Below are positions 5,602-43,706 of a stretch of DNA of 56,725 nucleotides, one piece after another. The translations under genes and the position numbers were made by a program. Positions within the stretch are counted from its first letter, which is position 1. Each line of letters begins with the position of its first letter. The notes beneath the pieces were generated by a model. It was not told the origin of the DNA, did not search any database, and saw only the letters and a list, made by a program, of their open reading frames with translations. This stretch comes from a virus. The stretch is taken from IMG/VR virus record IMGVR_UViG_3300005466_000008, positions 1 through 56,725 of that record, one strand, 5' to 3'.

Positions 5602-6900
5602 TTACGATTCTACTCTATGAACATGGGCCCTAACCCAAGTTCTACGAGCCAATAGTGAAGCAATAATCCGGTGGTTACCATCCTTGATGACTATCGCACC
5701 ACTCGGAAGAATCGTGAGATTGGGAAGATTGTCATCTCCCCCCGGAATACCCTCTTTAAGGTAATGTCGTATACGAGACACAGAAGCTTTGTCTTGGTGT
5801 GACAACAAAACCCTGCCCGACAAGTCTATTTCCTCAATCGGGCCTTTCTTACGAATCTCACTCGGGGGAACCTTAGCATCTCGGGGTGACAAGCTATCAA
5901 AAAGGTCTTTAATGCCCACCGTGGACGCATCTAGCTGATCACCATCTTTGTATTTGGCCAACCTCTTCAGCCCCGCATCACTATCCCAGGTGCTCACGCT
6001 AACTGGGGTAACATCTCCAACCGGCTGACCAAGCCTTGCCAAGTTTTCCTGAGTACGTCGCGTAAGTTCGTCGTCGAAATCTCCGCGTTCCAACGCTTTC
6101 TTGAAATCATCTGAAGACATCATCACGTAAGTCAGATAACAGAAGCAATTGGGATGTGGCTTGTCCGGCACCTCGTCAGGATCGTATGGCTCGTGTGCGG
6201 CAAAGACATTGCACTCGTCCGGCACCTTGTGCGATCCCGACAGATTCCACTTGACCGCTTTCACCCCTGGGCGATTCGCTCCTTCTTTCTGGCGCTCGTG
6301 GAAGGCATTGTTGATCTCAGTGCGTGCGAGACGCATAGCCGAATATGAAGATCCACCCGGCGCTGTCGGGCTGACATACCGATAAACCTCTGCGGCAAGC
6401 TCCTTCGCCGAGAGATTCTGAATCAGTCCTTGCCTGATGATGTCAACGATCCGGCCATCGTCTAGTGCCCGATTCGAGTACACGCGCCTGGACAGCGCTC
6501 GAGCACGACGAGCAGCATCACTCTTCAGCCCGGACGCTCCGGCGGCCCTCAGAGACGCCACAAGGGCATCAGCGGCCCGTTCTGACAGTCCGGCATACGC
6601 AATGCGTTCCAACGTCTCTATGGCGTCCTCAGCGGCCTGTAATGAGTCCTTGATGGCCCGTTCCACCAGTGGGTTGATCCGCCGGACCCACATCGTCTGC
6701 ACCAGAGCATTGATCGCAGCCAACGTCACGCGCAGCTGTGCAGCCCGAACCTCGCCACCGATCCCGACTGGCAAAGAAGCGATCCGTCGCTGGATCGCCT
6801 TGGCTGTTGCTTCAAGGATGCGCCGTAGTTCCGCCTCGGTGGTGGCCTGAACGATCGTATAGCGGCGGAACTCCGGACCCCTAGGCTGCGGAACCACCAT
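5602..6900 (-). CDS. MuF-like head morphogenesis protein with C-terminal ParB-like domain
   Basis: The first ~290 of 432 aa look like the SPP1 gp7/Mu gpF minor head protein. They include the helix SAMRLARTEINNAFHERQ and the Cys/His loop PHPNCFCYLTYV near residues 248-259. Such proteins bind the portal and enter with the DNA. The extra C-terminal region (about 300-432) ends in DGNHRIIASLLA, a motif typical of the ParB/sulfiredoxin-like fold. MuF proteins are known to carry C-terminal effector domains. The 3' third of the gene is clearly more AT-rich than its neighbours, which hints at acquisition. It overlaps the portal gene by 20 nt. Confidence 0.75.
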   Translation of the reverse strand: MVVPQPRGPEFRRYTIVQATTEAELRRILEATAKAIQRRIASLPVGIGGEVRAAQLRVTLAAINALVQTMWVRRINPLVERAIKDSLQAAEDAIETLERIAYAGLSERAADALVASLRAAGASGLKSDAARRARALSRRVYSNRALDDGRIVDIIRQGLIQNLSAKELAAEVYRYVSPTAPGGSSYSAMRLARTEINNAFHERQKEGANRPGVKAVKWNLSGSHKVPDECNVFAAHEPYDPDEVPDKPHPNCFCYLTYVMMSSDDFKKALERGDFDDELTRRTQENLARLGQPVGDVTPVSVSTWDSDAGLKRLAKYKDGDQLDASTVGIKDLFDSLSPRDAKVPPSEIRKKGPIEEIDLSGRVLLSHQDKASVSRIRHYLKEGIPGGDDNLPNLTILPSGAIVIKDGNHRIIASLLARRTWVRAHVHRVES

Positions 6901-21883: not shown

Positions 21884-22354
21884 ATGAACGCCGACACCGC
21901 AACCACCTTCATCACCTCGAACAAGGGCACCGAGATCCTGGTCGTGTTGAACGACTCCACCACCCATTATGGTGAGGCCCTGTCGGTCAACTCGAAGGGT
22001 GTCAACATCAAGGTGGAGGGGAAGACTCGGTCCTTCGCCCTGAGCCGGGTGGACGTGCTCGAGATTGCCGACCTGGACAACGAGCTAAACGAGGATGACG
22101 ACACTTCGGCTGACTGGGACATCGAGGACGCTGAGATGACCGACGAGGAGATCTACGCCGAGCTCGGGGAGGGCATGACCACGGCGGAGCTCGCCGCTCA
22201 CCTGTCGGACGCCCTGGAGGTCAACATGACCCCCAAGGAGCTCCGGGTGCACCTCCGGGCGCTGGGCCTGGGGGTCGGCAAGGGCCGCAAGTACTCGCTC
22301 TCCGCCACCGAGTACCGCATGGTCCGTGACCTGGTCAAGACCGAGGCGAACTGA
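21884..22354 (+). CDS. First rightward early gene; C-terminal DNA-binding-like domain
   Basis: This 156-aa protein has an N-terminal beta domain (TEILVVLNDSTTHYGEALSV, about 15-65) and an acidic linker. The C-terminal helical domain (about 100-156) has TTAELAAHLSD...ELRVHLRALG...GKGRKYSL. That domain is shared with the proteins at 41855-42277 and 43747-44394, where it looks like a winged helix. It is driven by the best promoter in the window, so it is probably abundant early. Function is unknown. Confidence 0.7.
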   Translation: MNADTATTFITSNKGTEILVVLNDSTTHYGEALSVNSKGVNIKVEGKTRSFALSRVDVLEIADLDNELNEDDDTSADWDIEDAEMTDEEIYAELGEGMTTAELAAHLSDALEVNMTPKELRVHLRALGLGVGKGRKYSLSATEYRMVRDLVKTEAN

Positions 22355-22516
22355 TCCACCCGGATGGGCCCTACGGGGCCCTCCACCTGGCCCTCAACTC
22401 AGGTGAGACCGGCCCTTCTCGGTGAAACTCCGGGCGATATGGGTTCGGGAGGCGGGATCGTATCCCCCTGGGGGCACCACATTTCTGCACGTCAAGAGAC
22501 TGGAAAGGGCTTACCC

Positions 22517-22540
22517 AAAAGATCTTCAAAGATCTTTGGC
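22517..22540. promoter_or_regulatory. Tandem AAGATCTT operator-like sites
   Basis: Two copies of the palindromic core AAGATCTT lie about 12 nt apart, just upstream of the -35 box of the next promoter. Spacing and symmetry suggest a dimeric regulator site. Confidence 0.45.
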
Positions 22541-22548
22541 CCAAACTA

Positions 22549-22577
22549 TTGCAGGCCGACGGTAGGTCGCATATACT
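22549..22577 (+). promoter_or_regulatory. Promoter placing +1 at the ATG (leaderless)
   Basis: TTGCAG (22549-22554), a 17-nt spacer and TATACT (22572-22577). Only 6 nt separate the -10 box from the ATG at 22584, and no Shine-Dalgarno fits. The predicted mRNA starts at or next to the start codon. Confidence 0.65.
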
Positions 22578-22583
22578 TATCTC

Positions 22584-22850
22584 ATGACGACGACGCGGAT
22601 CAACCACACCGGCCACAACCACCCGAACACCACCGCTGCCCGCACCGCCTGCCGCAAGGCCATGAAGGCCGCCCCGACCGGTGACCTCCAGCTCGCCACG
22701 ATCGGCAACGGGATGCGCCTCCACTACGTGGACATGGCGGTCATGACCACCCGCTGCGGCAAGGTCCAGCCGGTGTTCACCCGGATGGGGACGATCGCTG
22801 ACGTTGACTGCAAGGGCTGCCGGTCCAAGTACGGCCAGGCGCACGGCTGA
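22584..22850 (+). CDS. Small His/Cys-motif protein, paralogous N-terminus (copy 1)
   Basis: This 88-aa protein starts with NHTGHNHPNTTAARTACRK, the N-terminal motif shared with genes at 23529, 25770 and 26184. The rest (about 30-88) has strands and a CGK...CKGC cysteine set that could bind zinc. It is predicted to be translated from a leaderless message. A terminator hairpin follows at 22861-22883. Function is unknown. Confidence 0.65.
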   Translation: MTTTRINHTGHNHPNTTAARTACRKAMKAAPTGDLQLATIGNGMRLHYVDMAVMTTRCGKVQPVFTRMGTIADVDCKGCRSKYGQAHG

Positions 22851-22860
22851 TCCGCCCTCC

Positions 22861-22883
22861 GGGGGTGGGACCGGCCCACCCCC
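22861..22883 (+). terminator. GC hairpin after copy-1 gene
   Basis: GGGGGTGGG pairs with CCCACCCCC (9 bp, 5-nt loop) within 35 nt of the stop. There is no T-run. It may attenuate rather than fully terminate, since the next gene has an RBS but no obvious promoter. Confidence 0.6.
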
Positions 22884-22910
22884 TCCCTGACTCACACCGA
22901 GGAGCACACC

Positions 22911-23360
22911 ATGAATCTCGTCTCGCGCGTTCTGCCCGTCCTGAAGGCCCGTGGAGCCACGTGGCTCGTGTTTGGTACGTCCACCTACCAGTCGTTCGGT
23001 CACTCCGTTCACGTGGCTTCTCAGCACGGCGCACACGACCCCTGGCTGTTGCCGGTCTCGATTGATGGCGTGATGCTGGTCGCGTTCTCCTACGCGACTC
23101 ACGGCAAGACGCGCGCCGCTCGCATCCTGGCCTGGGTTGTCCTGGGGGTCTTCATGGCTGGTGTGGTCGGGATCAACTACCTCGCGGCTCCGGCCGAAGA
23201 CCCGATCGGCCAGGGACTCTCGGTTGCGCCTGCGGTCGGCATGATCGCGACCACGATTCTCATGCACCTGGTGCCCAAGGCCAAGGCTCCGGCTCGTCGT
23301 CGTCCCGCTGCCCGGAAGAACGTCACTCCGATCACGAAGGCCCGGAAAGCATCGGCTTGA
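22911..23360 (+). CDS. DUF2637-like membrane protein
   Basis: This 149-aa protein has hydrophobic segments near 48-65 (WLLPVSIDGVMLVAFSYA), 73-92 (ILAWVVLGVFMAGVVGINYL) and 103-121, followed by a basic Ala/Arg/Lys tail. The WLLPxSIDG motif and layout resemble DUF2637 (SpdB-like) proteins known from Streptomyces plasmids and phages, linked there to plasmid spread. GAGGAGCACACC precedes the ATG. A role in host membrane takeover is inference. Confidence 0.65.
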   Translation: MNLVSRVLPVLKARGATWLVFGTSTYQSFGHSVHVASQHGAHDPWLLPVSIDGVMLVAFSYATHGKTRAARILAWVVLGVFMAGVVGINYLAAPAEDPIGQGLSVAPAVGMIATTILMHLVPKAKAPARRRPAARKNVTPITKARKASA

Positions 23361-23381
23361 CGGACTGTCCCTACAATGCCT

Positions 23382-23415
23382 GGCTCCCCCAGCCGAAACC
23401 GGCTGTGCGGGAGCC
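23382..23415 (+). terminator. Two-tier hairpin terminator
   Basis: An outer stem GGCTCCC/GGGAGCC and an inner stem CAGCCG/CGGCTG form a long hairpin shortly after the DUF2637-like gene. A new promoter follows about 80 nt later. Confidence 0.75.
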
Positions 23416-23492
23416 TGTGACTCTGGGCAGGTCTCCGTGTACCTAGGATAATCCAGGTCTCCGCCAGAAGCTGAGACTCCTTCGTCACCCTA

Positions 23493-23522
23493 TTGCCCCG
23501 AGACCTGCCGATGACGTAGGAT
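23493..23522 (+). promoter_or_regulatory. Second leaderless-type promoter
   Basis: TTGCCC (23493-23498), an 18-nt spacer and TAGGAT (23517-23522), again with exactly 6 nt before the ATG (23529). The geometry repeats that of 22549-22577 and drives a second gene of the same N-terminal family. Confidence 0.6.
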
Positions 23523-23528
23523 AGGTGC

Positions 23529-23771
23529 ATGACACGCCTTGACCACACGAACTGCGGACACGCCCTGACCCCTGCCGCGCGCAAGCGTTGCCGTGACTGG
23601 CGCAACGATCGCATTCGCGCGGCGCAGAAGGCGTTCATGGCCGCTGCCGAGGACAACGACTCCCACCTGATTCGCGAATACGAAGCGATGGTGGACCTGT
23701 TCGCTGGCCAGGTCGGCATGGATCTGCACGATGCCTTTGACCTCATCGAGAACGGACCGGTGATCTACTGA
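23529..23771 (+). CDS. Small His/Cys-motif protein (copy 2)
   Basis: This 80-aa protein begins DHTNCGHALTPAARKRCRDW, the shared motif. A long helix follows (RIRAAQKAFMAAAEDNDSHLIREYEAM). It has no RBS and a promoter abutting the ATG, so it is probably leaderless. It overlaps the next gene by one base. Function is unknown. Confidence 0.65.
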   Translation: MTRLDHTNCGHALTPAARKRCRDWRNDRIRAAQKAFMAAAEDNDSHLIREYEAMVDLFAGQVGMDLHDAFDLIENGPVIY

Positions 23772-24127
23772 TGGCCAGCAACGCACCCCTTCCCAAGGCC
23801 GAAGCCAAAGTCATGTTCCGCATCTCCCCTACCGACCCCTGGCGCGACTCGGTCGACTTTGACCCCATCGTTATTCCGACCGAAGGCCCGGATACGACGG
23901 ACGTCTACGACGAGGGTCTGGTCTGCGTGACCGAAGAGATTGTCGATGCCGAATGCGAAGCGCTGATCCCGTGGGAGTACATGCTCGTGTGGTCAGCCAA
24001 CGAGAACCCCGTCAAGGGCGTGTGCCCGGTGTGTGACAAGCCGTTCATCGTGTCCGAGGGGTTCCCGAACGACGTACCGGGGGACACGTTCGAGCGAGCC
24101 GTTCAATGCGGCTGTGTGGACGACTGA
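23771..24127 (+). CDS. Zinc-ribbon hypothetical protein
   Basis: This 118-aa acidic protein has a C-terminal CPVC...CGC ribbon (about residues 89-115), likely one zinc site. It is translationally coupled to copy 2 by TGATG. The family is unknown. Confidence 0.6.
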   Translation: MASNAPLPKAEAKVMFRISPTDPWRDSVDFDPIVIPTEGPDTTDVYDEGLVCVTEEIVDAECEALIPWEYMLVWSANENPVKGVCPVCDKPFIVSEGFPNDVPGDTFERAVQCGCVDD

Positions 24128-24134
24128 CGGGCTG

Positions 24135-24174
24135 CAACGGGGTGGCTGCTGTACCGCCACCCCAACCCGTTGAC
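24135..24174 (+). terminator. Hairpin terminator
   Basis: GGGGTGGC (24139-24146) pairs with GCCACCCC (24156-24163), extended by CAACGG/CCGTTG with a bulge. The next promoter begins inside its 3' edge. Confidence 0.7.
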
Positions 24175-24199
24175 GTGCTTGAACTTAACCTGATACGGT
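24170..24199 (+). promoter_or_regulatory. Promoter for DUF2786-like gene
   Basis: TTGACG (24170-24175), 18-nt spacer, TACGGT (24194-24199). A leader of about 25 nt contains GAGGAGG before the GTG. The GATACGGT core resembles the promoter at 26752-26781. Confidence 0.55.
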
Positions 24200-24229
24200 A
24201 GATCAGTAACCAATACCGAGGAGGACATC

Positions 24230-25309
24230 GTGGGCTTCGATTACGCGGGCAAAGTCCGGGGCTTGTTGGCGAAGGCCGACAGTGCGGAGAAGATGGGCAA
24301 CGACAGTGAGTCCGCCCAATACCGGGCGAAAGCCATGGAATGGATGAAGCGATACCAGATCGCCGAGGAGGACGCGCTGGCGGTCGATCCGGCACTGGTC
24401 GAGCCCATCCTGATCACGGTGGATCTCACTCCCCCGGTGTCCGACCTATCGCACAACCTGCCCCTGATCGCGGACATCCTGGCTCGCCATTGCGAGGTGC
24501 GTCTTCACTTCACTCGTATGACCTGGACCACATACCGCTGGGAGGTCGTCGGGTACGAAGGTGACGTACGGTACTTCGAACTGCTGTGGACCTCGGCCTA
24601 CCTGATGTTCTCCACACATGTCGATCCCCACTGGGACGACATGCTGCCCGTAGAGGTCAACATCCACCGACTCCGTCGAGCTGGCCACACGCGCCGCGAG
24701 ATCGCACAACGTGCCTTCGGCGATGGAAACCTCGCTGCCAACCGGTCCAAGGTCCAGCGGATCTACGTGGCGCAGGCCAAGGCCGCTGGCGAAGATCCGG
24801 CTGCCGCCGGTCTGGGGTTCCAGGCCAAGGACTACCGGCGCGCGTACGCCCAGGCTTTCCTGGACCGCCTCACCAGGCGGCTTCGTGAGGCCCGTGACGC
24901 TGCCAATGCGACTGGTGGTGTGGTCGTTCTGGCTGGACGCGCGGAACGTGTTCAGGAAGCGTTCTACACGCTGGTCCCCGACGCTCGACCGACCCAGCAG
25001 CCGGTGGTCGCGTACAAGGACCCCCGTGACACCTGCCCGCGCTGTATCGCCCTCCGGGCCAAAGAGCTGAAGAAGCCCGTTCAGATGCAACGTGACCCCT
25101 CGGACATCGCCTGCCAGGAGCACGCGTACATGCGGCCTCGAAAGTGGACCCAGGCCGACGAGGAGCGCTGGCAGCGCCGGACGAACGGGCAATCAGCCCG
25201 TGCTGGCCGTGCCTCCGGACGACAGGCCGCTGACGGCGTGCACCTGCGGGGGACCGCGTCTCCGACCGCGCAGCGCGTGGAGGCCGCAAACCGGGCTCTC
25301 GAAGGTTAA
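24230..25309 (+). CDS. DUF2786-domain protein
   Basis: The N-terminal ~50 of 359 aa match DUF2786 (KVRGLLAKADSAEKMGNDSESAQYRAKAMEWM...YQI), common in actinobacterial phages and mobile elements and of unknown activity. The middle alpha/beta region (about 70-240) follows the usual DUF2786-associated pattern. The C-terminal part has CPRC...C that may bind metal, and a basic tail. The GTG start has a GAGGAGG RBS. It is the largest plus-strand gene. Confidence 0.75.
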   Translation: MGFDYAGKVRGLLAKADSAEKMGNDSESAQYRAKAMEWMKRYQIAEEDALAVDPALVEPILITVDLTPPVSDLSHNLPLIADILARHCEVRLHFTRMTWTTYRWEVVGYEGDVRYFELLWTSAYLMFSTHVDPHWDDMLPVEVNIHRLRRAGHTRREIAQRAFGDGNLAANRSKVQRIYVAQAKAAGEDPAAAGLGFQAKDYRRAYAQAFLDRLTRRLREARDAANATGGVVVLAGRAERVQEAFYTLVPDARPTQQPVVAYKDPRDTCPRCIALRAKELKKPVQMQRDPSDIACQEHAYMRPRKWTQADEERWQRRTNGQSARAGRASGRQAADGVHLRGTASPTAQRVEAANRALEG

Positions 25310-25333
25310 CCCGATTATTGGGACGGTAGTCTG

Positions 25334-25363
25334 TTGCATCCGGCTACCGTCCCCTGGTAAGCT
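25334..25363 (+). promoter_or_regulatory. Promoter with TCCCCTGG-TAAGCT core
   Basis: TTGCAT (25334-25339), 18-nt spacer ending TCCCCTGG, TAAGCT (25358-25363). The same TCCCCTGGTAAG block and a following GGCTCA-type segment recur at 26126-26155, implying co-regulation. Confidence 0.6.
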
Positions 25364-25392
25364 AATGGCTCACCGAACGAAGGGGGCACCTA

Positions 25393-25629
25393 ATGGAACT
25401 GCAAACGGCGGAACAGCTTCAGAATCTGATCGGCGTACGTGGCTACGTGATAACCTTCTGGAAGGGTCGGGCGATTCTCCTCAACTGGTGCTCCGGGGGG
25501 ACAACCGGATACACCTTCCGGGGTTTGGATCGATTCCGGAACCCAGTTGAGATTCACGTCCAACTGGCCCATGCCACTGATCAGCAATTCGTGATCACCT
25601 CGAAAGCTCGGGTAGGTTGGTCATGGTGA
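25393..25629 (+). CDS. Hypothetical protein
   Basis: This 78-aa protein, probably a small beta-barrel-like domain (VRGYVITFWKGRAILLNWC; NPVEIHVQLAHAT), has no recognised family. GAAGGGGG lies 6 nt upstream of the ATG. Confidence 0.55.
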   Translation: MELQTAEQLQNLIGVRGYVITFWKGRAILLNWCSGGTTGYTFRGLDRFRNPVEIHVQLAHATDQQFVITSKARVGWSW

Positions 25630-25754
25630 AAACCATTTTCACCTATGCGGTTGCGACCATCCAGGCGCTCGGCCCTGCCGGGCTCCTGGGGGTCATGATC
25701 CTTGCTTGCGGCTTCTGGGAACTGTCCGGCATCCACCTTACCCCCATTCACTGA
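25623..25754 (+). CDS. 43-residue membrane peptide
   Basis: This ATG overlaps the end of the previous gene by 7 nt. The peptide has one membrane helix (ALGPAGLLGVMILACGFWEL). Codon use and coupling support it. Function is unknown. Confidence 0.55.
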   Translation: MVKTIFTYAVATIQALGPAGLLGVMILACGFWELSGIHLTPIH

Positions 25755-25769
25755 TAAGGAGATCCGATC

Positions 25770-26018
25770 ATGGCTATCGACCACACCGCCTGCATGCACC
25801 CCCGCACTCCGTCCGGACGCCGGGCATGCCGCGCGGGACGGACCGCCCCGGTTGAGACCACGCCAAGGGCTCCCAGGGCCACGCAGAAGCCCGTTCGCAT
25901 CCAACCGCGTCGGTCGGGTGCCCGCGTGGCTGCCACGTCCTCATCGTGCGTTCAAGCGGCCCTGCACACGCGCGGTCGCTGCGCCTGCGGCTGGGAGAGC
26001 TGGGAGATGGCGGCATGA
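25770..26018 (+). CDS. Small His/Cys-motif protein (copy 3)
   Basis: This 82-aa protein opens with IDHTACMHPRTPSGRRACR, the shared motif, then a Pro/Arg-rich linker and a C-terminal CACGW. TAAGGAG precedes the ATG, so unlike copies 1 and 2 it has a leader. It overlaps the next gene by ATGA. Function is unknown. Confidence 0.6.
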   Translation: MAIDHTACMHPRTPSGRRACRAGRTAPVETTPRAPRATQKPVRIQPRRSGARVAATSSSCVQAALHTRGRCACGWESWEMAA

Positions 26019-26152
26019 TCGAGATGTGCCCCTGCGGCTGCGGGTATCCGGTGAAGCGGGAGAACGGTCAGATCGTTGTGGTCCCCAGGTTGACACGGAG
26101 TATCCGCACAACTGCTGACGCGCTGTTGCCCCGGCCTTGCCTCCCCTGGTAA
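26015..26152 (+). CDS. Tiny CPCGCG zinc-knuckle-like protein (45 aa)
   Basis: ATGA-coupled to copy 3. It starts MIEMCPCGCGYPVKRENGQ, a knuckle common in small phage proteins. The next promoter overlaps its 3' end. The function is unknown. Confidence 0.5.
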   Translation: MIEMCPCGCGYPVKRENGQIVVVPRLTRSIRTTADALLPRPCLPW

Positions 26153-26155
26153 GGT
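26126..26155 (+). promoter_or_regulatory. Promoter with TCCCCTGG-TAAGGT core
   Basis: TTGCCC (26126-26131), 18-nt spacer, TAAGGT (26150-26155), with the same spacer end as at 25334-25363. The -10 box overlaps the stop codon of the tiny upstream gene. Confidence 0.6.
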
Positions 26156-26183
26156 TGGAGCTCAACCAACCGAGGAGGTAACG

Positions 26184-26729
26184 ATGGCGATCTCACACGC
26201 GGACCACGGTCACCCGAACACTCCGGCTGCTCGAGCTGCCTGCCGGAAGCGGATAACCGCCGGACAGTCCCCGCTGGACAAGTCGGCGGAGCGCGCGCTG
26301 GCCGAGGCGGCTGGGGTCGTCAAGGCTGCCACTACCAAACCCGCCACCTGGAACGTGGTGCCGAAGGGTGGCAAGAAGCCGGTGGCACTGAAGAACGTCA
26401 AGCGGACCAATAGCCTGATCAAGAACCGGTCCGACCTGGCGGACGTTCCACACGCGCTGGTGCATGGGATCGAGGAGGCCTGGACTCGGGATCTTGACGT
26501 TCGAGTTGGAGATCGGTTCCGTGATGATGAGGCTCGGATCACCATCCAGGCCGAATTGTGCGAGATCGCGTTGGTGTGGAAAGTTGCCAACCGGCATGGT
26601 GTGCACGCTATCTGGGTGCGGAACTGGGATTCGTCAAGGCAGTTCAAGGTCAACAGCGTGGCCGAGGCTTTCATGGTGTCCGAGGACCGTGATCTGTGGG
26701 ACGAGTACGGCAACCTCCGCACCGCGTGA
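26184..26729 (+). CDS. His/Cys-motif protein with extra domain (copy 4)
   Basis: This 181-aa protein begins ISHADHGHPNTPAARAACRK, the shared motif. A basic linker follows, then an alpha/beta domain (about 85-181, TIQAELCEIALVWKVANRHG and HAIWVRNWDSS). This copy shows the motif attached to a sizeable domain. GAGGAGG precedes the ATG. Function is unknown. Confidence 0.65.
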   Translation: MAISHADHGHPNTPAARAACRKRITAGQSPLDKSAERALAEAAGVVKAATTKPATWNVVPKGGKKPVALKNVKRTNSLIKNRSDLADVPHALVHGIEEAWTRDLDVRVGDRFRDDEARITIQAELCEIALVWKVANRHGVHAIWVRNWDSSRQFKVNSVAEAFMVSEDRDLWDEYGNLRTA

Positions 26730-26751
26730 TGCACATCACACCTGTGGTTAG

Positions 26752-26781
26752 TTCCCTGACCCCCCTCTAACCCGATACGTT
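26752..26781 (+). promoter_or_regulatory. Promoter for zinc-ribbon gene
   Basis: TTCCCT (26752-26757), 18-nt spacer, TACGTT (26776-26781), preceded by CCCGA as in the 24170-24199 promoter. The -35 box is weak. Confidence 0.45.
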
Positions 26782-26808
26782 GAAGGCAACACCAGCCGAG
26801 GAGGAAAC

Positions 26809-27333
26809 GTGATCATCGACCTGAAAACCGCCAACTACCTAACCAAGGTCATCGCGGAGATCGAGGCGGGGAAGGGCACCATCCCGCTCGTCAGCATCTG
26901 CCCGGAGTGCGGGGAGACCATCGACGACTTTCTGACCGCAGCCGCCGGAGACGGACACCTGGTTTACAAGGTCACGTCCGACAGCTTCGCCATCCTGATC
27001 GGATGCGAGGGGTATTGGGTCACTGACCCTGGGCTGGTCGGCCTAGAACGCAAGGGATGGACCAACCCGAACGGCGTGGAGCCCGTCAACGACAAAGGTT
27101 ATCCGGCGTGTCCGGCTGCCACGTGGGAGAACCCTCACTACCTGTGCTTCATGGAACGGCGGGACCTGGACGAGTGCCCGGAGTGCAGTCACCCGATCCC
27201 CGAAGAGCTGAAGCTGAACGACAACATGACCGGCCTCCGAGAGAATACGCCGGAATCCGACTTCGACAAGTGCCCGACCTGCGGTGCTTACGGGTGCATC
27301 GTGGACCATAACCCGCTGTCAACTGAGGAGTAA
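26809..27333 (+). CDS. Triple zinc-ribbon protein
   Basis: This 174-aa protein has three CxxC-type sites: CPECG (about 32), CPECSH (about 125) and CPTCGAYGC (about 155). These suggest two or more zinc ribbons around a central alpha/beta stretch. The GTG start has GAGGAGG. It is the last gene of the rightward block, ending at a bidirectional hairpin. The family is unknown. Confidence 0.6.
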   Translation: MIIDLKTANYLTKVIAEIEAGKGTIPLVSICPECGETIDDFLTAAAGDGHLVYKVTSDSFAILIGCEGYWVTDPGLVGLERKGWTNPNGVEPVNDKGYPACPAATWENPHYLCFMERRDLDECPECSHPIPEELKLNDNMTGLRENTPESDFDKCPTCGAYGCIVDHNPLSTEE

Positions 27334-43445: not shown

Positions 43446-43619
43446 AAGGGGGTGGGGGAACCGTACTGTCCGCAGCCTAAGCTTCATGCGTACTGACGGT
43501 ATATCCATCAACTGGATCCGCTTGCATTCTCCCACCCTTCTCCGAAGTCGCCTGGCGGTCGGCGTCTCCGAAGCTTTACGGCCGGACATCGGCACGGGGG
43601 TAACGATGCCCAGCCAAGA

Positions 43620-43706
43620 GGGGAGTGGAGGAATTGAACCTCCAACCGGCCAGGGATTCCGCTATACGGTGTCCCCTGGATGCTCTAACCGTTGAGCTAA
43701 CTCCCC
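43620..43706 (-). tRNA. tRNA-like gene with expanded anticodon arm
   Basis: Read on the minus strand, it has a perfect 7-bp acceptor stem (GGGGAGT/ACTCCCC), a D-arm (GCTC-AACGGTTA-GAGC) and a T-arm (GGAGG-TTCAATT-CCTCC). The anticodon region is abnormal. A CCAGGG/CCCTGG stem encloses 18 nt, inside which CCG/CGG pairs around TATAG. Total length is 87 nt, and CCA is not encoded. The anticodon is not assignable. It may be an intron-bearing, decayed or non-decoding tRNA. Confidence 0.7.

Follow-up and report, generated by a model that had tools for sequence, protein, structure and literature searches.

A short portable His/Cys module on unrelated proteins of actinobacterial viruses: a candidate docking part

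Small zinc-binding modules and short cargo labels are both carried as discrete parts of larger proteins. The retroviral-type CCHC zinc knuckle has the ligand order C-x2-C-x4-H-x4-C, and the classical C2H2 zinc finger consists of a loop and a helix, with two Cys before the helix and two His inside it. The T4-type capsid-targeting sequence, which is found at the N-terminus only and is removed by the head protease, and marker motifs of the MIX, FIX and prePAAR type mark cargo for the virion or for a secretion system. These are among the closest described systems to a short His/Cys module present on four genes of the viral record IMGVR_UViG_3300005466_000008 (IMG/VR), a stretch of 56,725 bases that was analysed over its full length and is called the window below.

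The module is a conserved, portable mini-domain, and its occurrence points to an unrecognised, reusable docking part in viruses of actinobacteria. Judged from sequence, it may be a miniature zinc-finger-like docking module for which nucleic acid is the most likely target (probability about 0.45).

The module and its four carriers in the window

A six-frame scan of the window for the 17-residue motif H-x2-[C/H]-x-H-x2-T-x3-R-x2-C-R gives exactly four places, all on the + strand and each beginning 4-7 residues from a predicted start codon (Table 1). A looser pattern gave one further match, judged to be chance. The four frames are the genes at 22584, 23529, 25770 and 26184, to which the original prediction had assigned a common N-terminal motif. 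That motif is real as it was written, although it left open the third residue after the first His, a near-invariant position that is Cys or His in each window module. The module therefore holds four possible metal ligands, H-x2-[C/H]-x-H-x9-C, and two conserved Arg flank the last of them, the Cys.

The bodies that follow the motif had been described as unrelated, and once the module is masked they do fall into four separate blastp clusters (18, 3, 2, 0). Searched against the window, the 181-residue protein finds its own gene, a 25-residue N-terminal match in the 22584 gene and nothing else. Homologous bodies of the 22584 gene occur in the collected loci L138, L076 and L148; orthologues of the 23529 gene occur in L096, L046 and L148, and those of the 25770 gene in L086, L097, L017, L030 and L151. 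The module is better conserved than the body in all four gene families. Module and body identities average 0.96 vs 0.52 in the 22584 family, 0.55 vs 0.36 in the 23529 family and 0.74 vs 0.47 in the 25770 family; in the 26184 family, 12 of 17 invariant columns fall within the first 22 residues.

Spread, carrier bodies and gene context

A hidden Markov model built from 162 modules, used with a cut-off of 14 bits, gave 208 matches in the forward frames of the collected loci (duplicates included) and 0 in the reversed sequences. As the loci were themselves retrieved with a pattern, the control speaks for specificity and not for frequency. At the DNA level, 96 stretches of the virus collection match a degenerate pattern of the HCHC form and 38 match one of the HHHC form, and 31 stretches of bacterial and archaeal genomes match a tighter HCHC pattern. 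Some pattern matches are clearly chance frames (e.g., L010, L016, L074), as would be expected if the motif were a chance similarity or an artefact of short open frames. The reversed-sequence control, the orthologous families that keep the module and its presence in annotated genes of isolated phages leave that explanation a negligible probability overall, and for the four window copies it is refuted.

Fifty virus records chosen for holding the module were searched whole, counting matches to E 0.01. The module was found in 50 of 50 and in two or more copies in 36, or 34 without the weak second matches of G025 and G043, with a maximum of 10; two of these records, G036 and W02, appear to be one phage, Muddy. 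Streptomyces phage KimJongPhill, assigned together with Zuko to cluster BR in a published study (PMC10690885), has ten copies, on the nine consecutive genes gp88 to gp96 and on gp98, and all ten proteins are annotated as hypothetical. With one module as query and a loose limit of E 10, tblastn matched 64 of 50,697 phage records (60 of the 64 listed); the hosts were Gordonia (51), Mycobacterium (7), Streptomyces (4), Nocardia (1) and Pseudoalteromonas (1), the last being probably a chance match. At least one copy is also present in 12 of 13 bacterial genomes searched whole. Ten neighbour genes were scanned in six bacterial loci: in L116, L130, L127, L108 and L110 one neighbour contains a domain of a phage-type integrase, a serine recombinase or a D5-type primase, and none of these domains was found among the scanned neighbours in L128.

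The 184 distinct module-bearing frames comprise 123 with the module near the N-terminus, 36 near the C-terminus and 25 internal. Since the start codons behind these counts were picked by a simple rule with a preference for ribosome-binding sites, some leaderless carriers with an N-terminal module, such as L148 (+, 5188), received a start too far upstream and were scored as internal. In N-terminal carriers the first His is preceded by a median of 5 residues (99 proteins), and a median of 6.5 residues follows the last Arg in C-terminal ones (32 proteins). When the module was masked, 155 usable carriers formed 78 body clusters, 50 of them single, a number that is an upper bound, depends on the blastp cut-off of 1e-4 and includes the doubtful members L010, L056, L106 and L131. 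The module lies within 25 residues of a terminus in 71 of the 78 cluster representatives, against 54% expected for random placement.

Its independence of the bodies is most visible in rearranged carriers. In one body family the module is C-terminal in phages L004 and L007 and N-terminal in the Nocardiopsis contig L121. KimJongPhill gp91 and a protein of L014 have a common N-terminal extension and module on different bodies, and the gp91 body recurs in another L014 protein behind a different N-terminus. By the evidence of these sequences, the module moves as an independent unit between bodies and ends. The claim that a conserved short module on different bodies constitutes a portable tag is thus borne out by as many as 78 body clusters, by placement at either terminus and by one body tagged at opposite ends. 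Its description as an N-terminal tag is accurate for the window; elsewhere the module is also C-terminal or internal. Far from being absent outside this phage or variable in its relatives, the motif is widespread and conserved.

Family scans of 75 of the 78 representatives (L131, L010 and L106 were left out) gave only five Pfam families at E 0.001, and most bodies match nothing (Table 1). Several carriers bear on whether the module could be a signal for packaging into, or ejection from, the virion, by analogy with the capsid-targeting sequence of T4 internal proteins. In the MuF head proteins of L135, L144 and L154 it separates the head part from a papain-fold domain, in L152 and L137 it is N-terminal, the end of the L152 protein matches a head morphogenesis family, and the carrier gp3 of Muddy adjoins the terminase genes. 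Such a signal is nevertheless quite unlikely: the carriers of the window and of KimJongPhill lie in small-gene arrays away from structural genes, and C-terminal and tandem modules misfit a cleaved N-terminal signal. The papain-fold domain of the three MuF proteins is filed by Pfam under toxin-like glutamine deamidases, and the L152 protein also has a HEMGH metalloprotease-like motif.

All four window carriers lie in a rightward gene block, unlike nearly all other large window genes, which run leftward. Within the block the promoter-like pattern TTG[AC]NN-17/18-TANNNT occurs at six sites on the + strand, all upstream of genes, and at none on the other strand; the pattern was devised after reading the upstream sequences of the window, which makes these counts post hoc and the other loci the fairer test. 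A promoter-like (sigma-70-type) site lies within 100 nucleotides upstream of 54 of 113 N-terminal carriers; the corresponding counts are 2 of 113 for the reverse strand and 1 of 109 within genes. In 24 carriers the site ends exactly 6 nucleotides before the start codon. Gene 4 is also preceded by a GAGGAGG ribosome-binding-like site. Across 124 viral loci, the 6-nucleotide spacing is found in 116 frames of at least 40 residues, while every other distance between 2 and 15 nucleotides accounts for 1-12 frames. Of the 116, only 30 are N-terminal module carriers, so the leaderless spacing is a wider habit of these phages. Stricter general promoter scans gave no excess of sites.

Carriers with such sites resemble leaderless units of one gene each that the host polymerase would transcribe, an arrangement consistent with early expression. 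The original prediction had placed the carriers among early host-takeover proteins; the promoter-like sites of N-terminal carriers and the small rightward block of the window agree with this, but some carriers are not takeover orphans (the SprT-like protease, HNH nuclease and MuF head protein). Between the module genes of the block sits a DUF2637 membrane protein without the module (22911-23360, +). ARAGORN reports one tRNA-like gene in the window, at 43618-43706 (-), with an incomplete anticodon of two bases.

Table 1. Coordinates of the window features and of carriers in other loci
Feature	Position or locus	Strand	Description	E
Gene 1	22584..22850	+	88 residues: N-terminal module and body with CxxC-type C-terminus	
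Module copy 1	22605..22655	+	HTGHNHPNTTAARTACR, HHHC variant	1.3e-11
Gene 2	23529..23771	+	80 residues: N-terminal module and short body with ENGPVIY end	
Module copy 2	23544..23594	+	HTNCGHALTPAARKRCR, HCHC variant	1.7e-11
Gene 3	25770..26018	+	82 residues: N-terminal module and body with C-terminal CxxxxxH...CxCGW	
Module copy 3	25782..25832	+	HTACMHPRTPSGRRACR, HCHC variant	9.8e-11
Gene 4	26184..26729	+	181 residues: N-terminal module, low-confidence linker ~34-70, globular alpha/beta body ~75-176 (predicted)	
Module copy 4	26196..26246	+	HADHGHPNTPAARAACR, HHHC variant	6.2e-13
Rightward gene block with all four carriers	21884..27333	+	Delimited with a simple gene picker	
Promoter-like site, gene 1	22549..22577	+	TTGCAG-17-TATACT, ends 6 nucleotides before the start (leaderless arrangement)	
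Promoter-like site, gene 2	23493..23522	+	TTGCCC-18-TAGGAT, ends 6 nucleotides before the start (leaderless arrangement)	
Promoter-like site, gene 4	26126..26155	+	TTGCCC-18-TAAGGT, 28 nucleotides before the gene	
SprT-like protease carriers	L073, L158			
Double HNH nuclease	L117		Module between both HNH parts	
DUF6011 carrier	L020			
DUF2637 membrane protein	L005; L146		Module C-terminal; L146 below cut-off	
MuF-type head proteins	L135:77-1741, L144:5165-6262, L154:706-2355	-	Module between head part and papain-fold domain	
Large proteins	L152:267-2018, L137:7820-9064	-	N-terminal module; 584 residues (L152) and 415 residues (L137)	

Selection, predicted fold and possible targets

The H, H, R, C and R of the module are fixed, partly because the pattern with which most copies were retrieved prescribes several residues; the Thr is kept in 180 of 182. 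In the 10 copies that lie outside every search pattern, H1, C/H4 and H6 are each present in 10 of 10, Thr or Ser in 10 of 10, and Arg13 and Cys16 in 9 of 9 resolved. The four possible ligands, together with a CxxC or CxC in the body of 26 of the 78 cluster representatives, would also suit a structural metal site or a redox or metal sensor at the protein end with no docking role. This is unlikely, as the two Arg and the Thr, which are not ligands, show roughly the same conservation as the ligands themselves, and as the same module on unrelated bodies is needless for a site that serves its own body.

Module peptides share a mean identity of 0.629 within a genome (235 pairs) and 0.569 between genomes (16,236 pairs), a difference with p 0.0005 by label shuffling. 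The within-genome copies are identical at 523 of 1403 shared four-fold sites (0.373), where base composition predicts 0.343. Synonymous sites are thus saturated while the peptide is conserved: at the DNA level the copies are old, and it is the peptide that is under purifying selection. Palindromic elements that insert in frame into genes are present in Rickettsia, and the presence of several copies on unrelated genes and the chimeras at the module could suggest a comparable mobile DNA element whose peptide has no role of its own. Peptide selection in place of DNA copying makes this disfavoured explanation very improbable, and an in-frame selfish element was rejected since the copies are not alike at the DNA level (four-fold identity 0.37 vs 0.34 expected).

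The module is basic, with a charge of +3.46 per 20 residues against about 0 for the bodies, and exceeds its own body in 74 of 78 cases. From 59 aligned N-termini, AlphaFold2 predicts for a 41-residue module a loop with the first three ligands followed by a helix (residues 14-27) that holds the Cys; residues 11-20 have a mean predicted local distance difference test score (pLDDT) of 88. For the 181-residue protein, residues ~75-176 are modelled as a confident alpha/beta body, and residues 34 to 70 lie nearly all below pLDDT 50. No close solved relative of this body emerged. A fold search with the full 26184 model gave nothing in the PDB at E 0.001; the best match of a second comparison, 7ui9_a (Z 5.5, 82 aligned residues, root-mean-square deviation 4.0), was tied with unrelated structures and was taken for no more than a common arrangement. 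In a viral fold library the best match (E 0.023) was to uncharacterised proteins.

The module could accordingly be pictured as a domain of about 20 residues in which a three-ligand loop (H-x2-[C/H]-x-H) leads into a basic helix that would begin at the conserved Thr and place the fourth ligand, Cys, between the two conserved Arg. It likely binds zinc and probably folds around a single ion. Attached through a variable linker to one terminus of numerous unrelated phage proteins, it would act as a portable docking tag that brings all its carriers to the same kind of target, most likely nucleic acid (phage or host DNA). Small proteins that may be expressed early, the SprT-like protease, the HNH nuclease and some virion proteins would in this manner be tethered to DNA. 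Nucleic acid is favoured as the target because of the basic helix, the HNH and SprT carriers (L117; L073 and L158), and the occurrence of three modules in one frame of L122, an actinobacterial chromosome contig (5396-7168, -), where the first two are 30 residues apart. A related frame in L119 (Micromonospora; 6033-6367, -) is frameshifted between its first two modules. Zinc fingers flank a phage HNH nuclease in one published account (PMC11855218), and domain shuffling in phage proteins is treated in another, which makes no use of the word zinc (PMC10684548).

Several observations weigh against a nucleic-acid docking module. Some carriers have no obvious business with DNA, namely the DUF2637 membrane protein, the MuF head protein and many orphans. 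The module model is of middling quality overall (mean pLDDT 72.9, predicted template modelling score 0.40), and in the full-length 26184 protein residue blocks 1-10 and 11-20 average pLDDT 49 and 64. Neither sequence nor fold searches gave a solved relative of the module: the single match among solved structures by sequence (E 1.4) was dismissed as chance, and a fold search with the 41-residue model returned zero matches. Finally, where a genome holds at least three copies, the residue next to the conserved Thr on its C-terminal side is tied more closely to the genome than to the body: some genomes have K/R at this position in nearly every copy and others have P, irrespective of the bodies. 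The class of this residue agrees with the majority of the same genome's other copies in 64 of 71 cases, and 183 of 200 within-genome pairs are of one class against 101.7 expected. For the membrane carriers, DUF2637 proteins are presumably SpdB-like. The membrane protein SpdB2 binds DNA non-specifically according to a published study (PMC4170104), and on the strength of that finding a DNA-binding tail on a DUF2637-like protein is plausible.

As the residue after Thr tracks the genome, a genome-specific protein partner would also fit. The module might then be a docking tag for one shared protein, an actinobacterial host factor or a phage hub protein, on which all tagged proteins of a phage assemble or which they all reach. 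This doubtful but serious alternative, close behind nucleic acid, is favoured by the greater likeness of copies within a genome, by the residue classes and by the placement at either terminus with variable linkers, which suits a docking peptide. Genomes of the same class are partly related, however, and lineage-wise spread of one ancestral copy gives the same pattern, while the basic charge and the three-module frame of L122 suit nucleic acid better. The residue pattern could reflect either co-adaptation to a genome-specific target or such lineage-wise spread, and it is not pressed here because related genomes are not independent.

A docking module of either kind could work as an address label, and it is possible, if tentatively held, that all tagged proteins of an actinobacterial phage go to a single site or complex, such as replicating phage DNA or one of the host's machines, with the label co-evolving with its target genome by genome. 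In KimJongPhill, ten different effectors would then converge on one target. Actinobacteriophages have many small orphan genes, most of them unexplained, and a common, recognisable and mutable tag would offer one handle on dozens of them, as the binding target of the tag would be that of all its carriers. The short module profile is a ready annotation rule for proteins now called hypothetical, and the module itself exemplifies a domain that has been shuffled among bodies and from one end to the other.

Comparison with known systems

Searches of Pfam and NCBIfam with the four window proteins gave no convincing match to the module at E values up to 1, in a type of search that often misses very short motifs. 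No description of the motif was found in open-licence full text, where it is not searchable by pattern. The module is matched by two PHROG profiles. PHROG 18656 matches the 23529 (E 7.3e-8), 26184 (E 6.2e-5), 25770 (E 0.0046) and, weakly, 22584 (E 0.0097) proteins, and in a genome-wide search recovers all four window genes (E 6e-9 to 4.3e-4); PHROG 1342 matches all four proteins at E 0.00075 to 0.15. The two profiles match 46 and 27 of the 75 representatives, respectively, at E 0.001. In the four window proteins this similarity covers the module and at most a short following stretch, with no whole-protein match. Both PHROGs are whole-protein clusters without a description and not domain models, whereas the module is also found on many other bodies and at either terminus.

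The CCHC zinc knuckle resembles the module in its size, which is about the same, its four ligands, its basic surroundings and its portability. It differs in ligand order and spacing, which in the module are H-x2-[C/H]-x-H-x9-C, with the fourth ligand in a predicted helix. The C2H2 finger shares the loop followed by a helix, as predicted for the module, and copies about 30 residues apart in one frame, as in L122. In contrast to that finger, the module has three ligands before and one within the predicted helix, and it matches no solved chain.

Like the T4 capsid-targeting sequence and the MIX, FIX and prePAAR motifs, the module is a short conserved segment on otherwise unrelated proteins. Unlike them, it has metal-ligand residues, can be placed at either terminus and, in both the window and KimJongPhill, is carried by small genes outside the structural region. 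Identity with a T4-type capsid-targeting sequence was rejected on its N-terminal-only placement, given that 36 of 184 frames carry the module C-terminally and 25 of 184 internally. Tested against features that define the CCHC knuckle, the C2H2 finger and the T4 capsid-targeting sequence, the module departs from each of the three, and what it has in common with them is a general resemblance.

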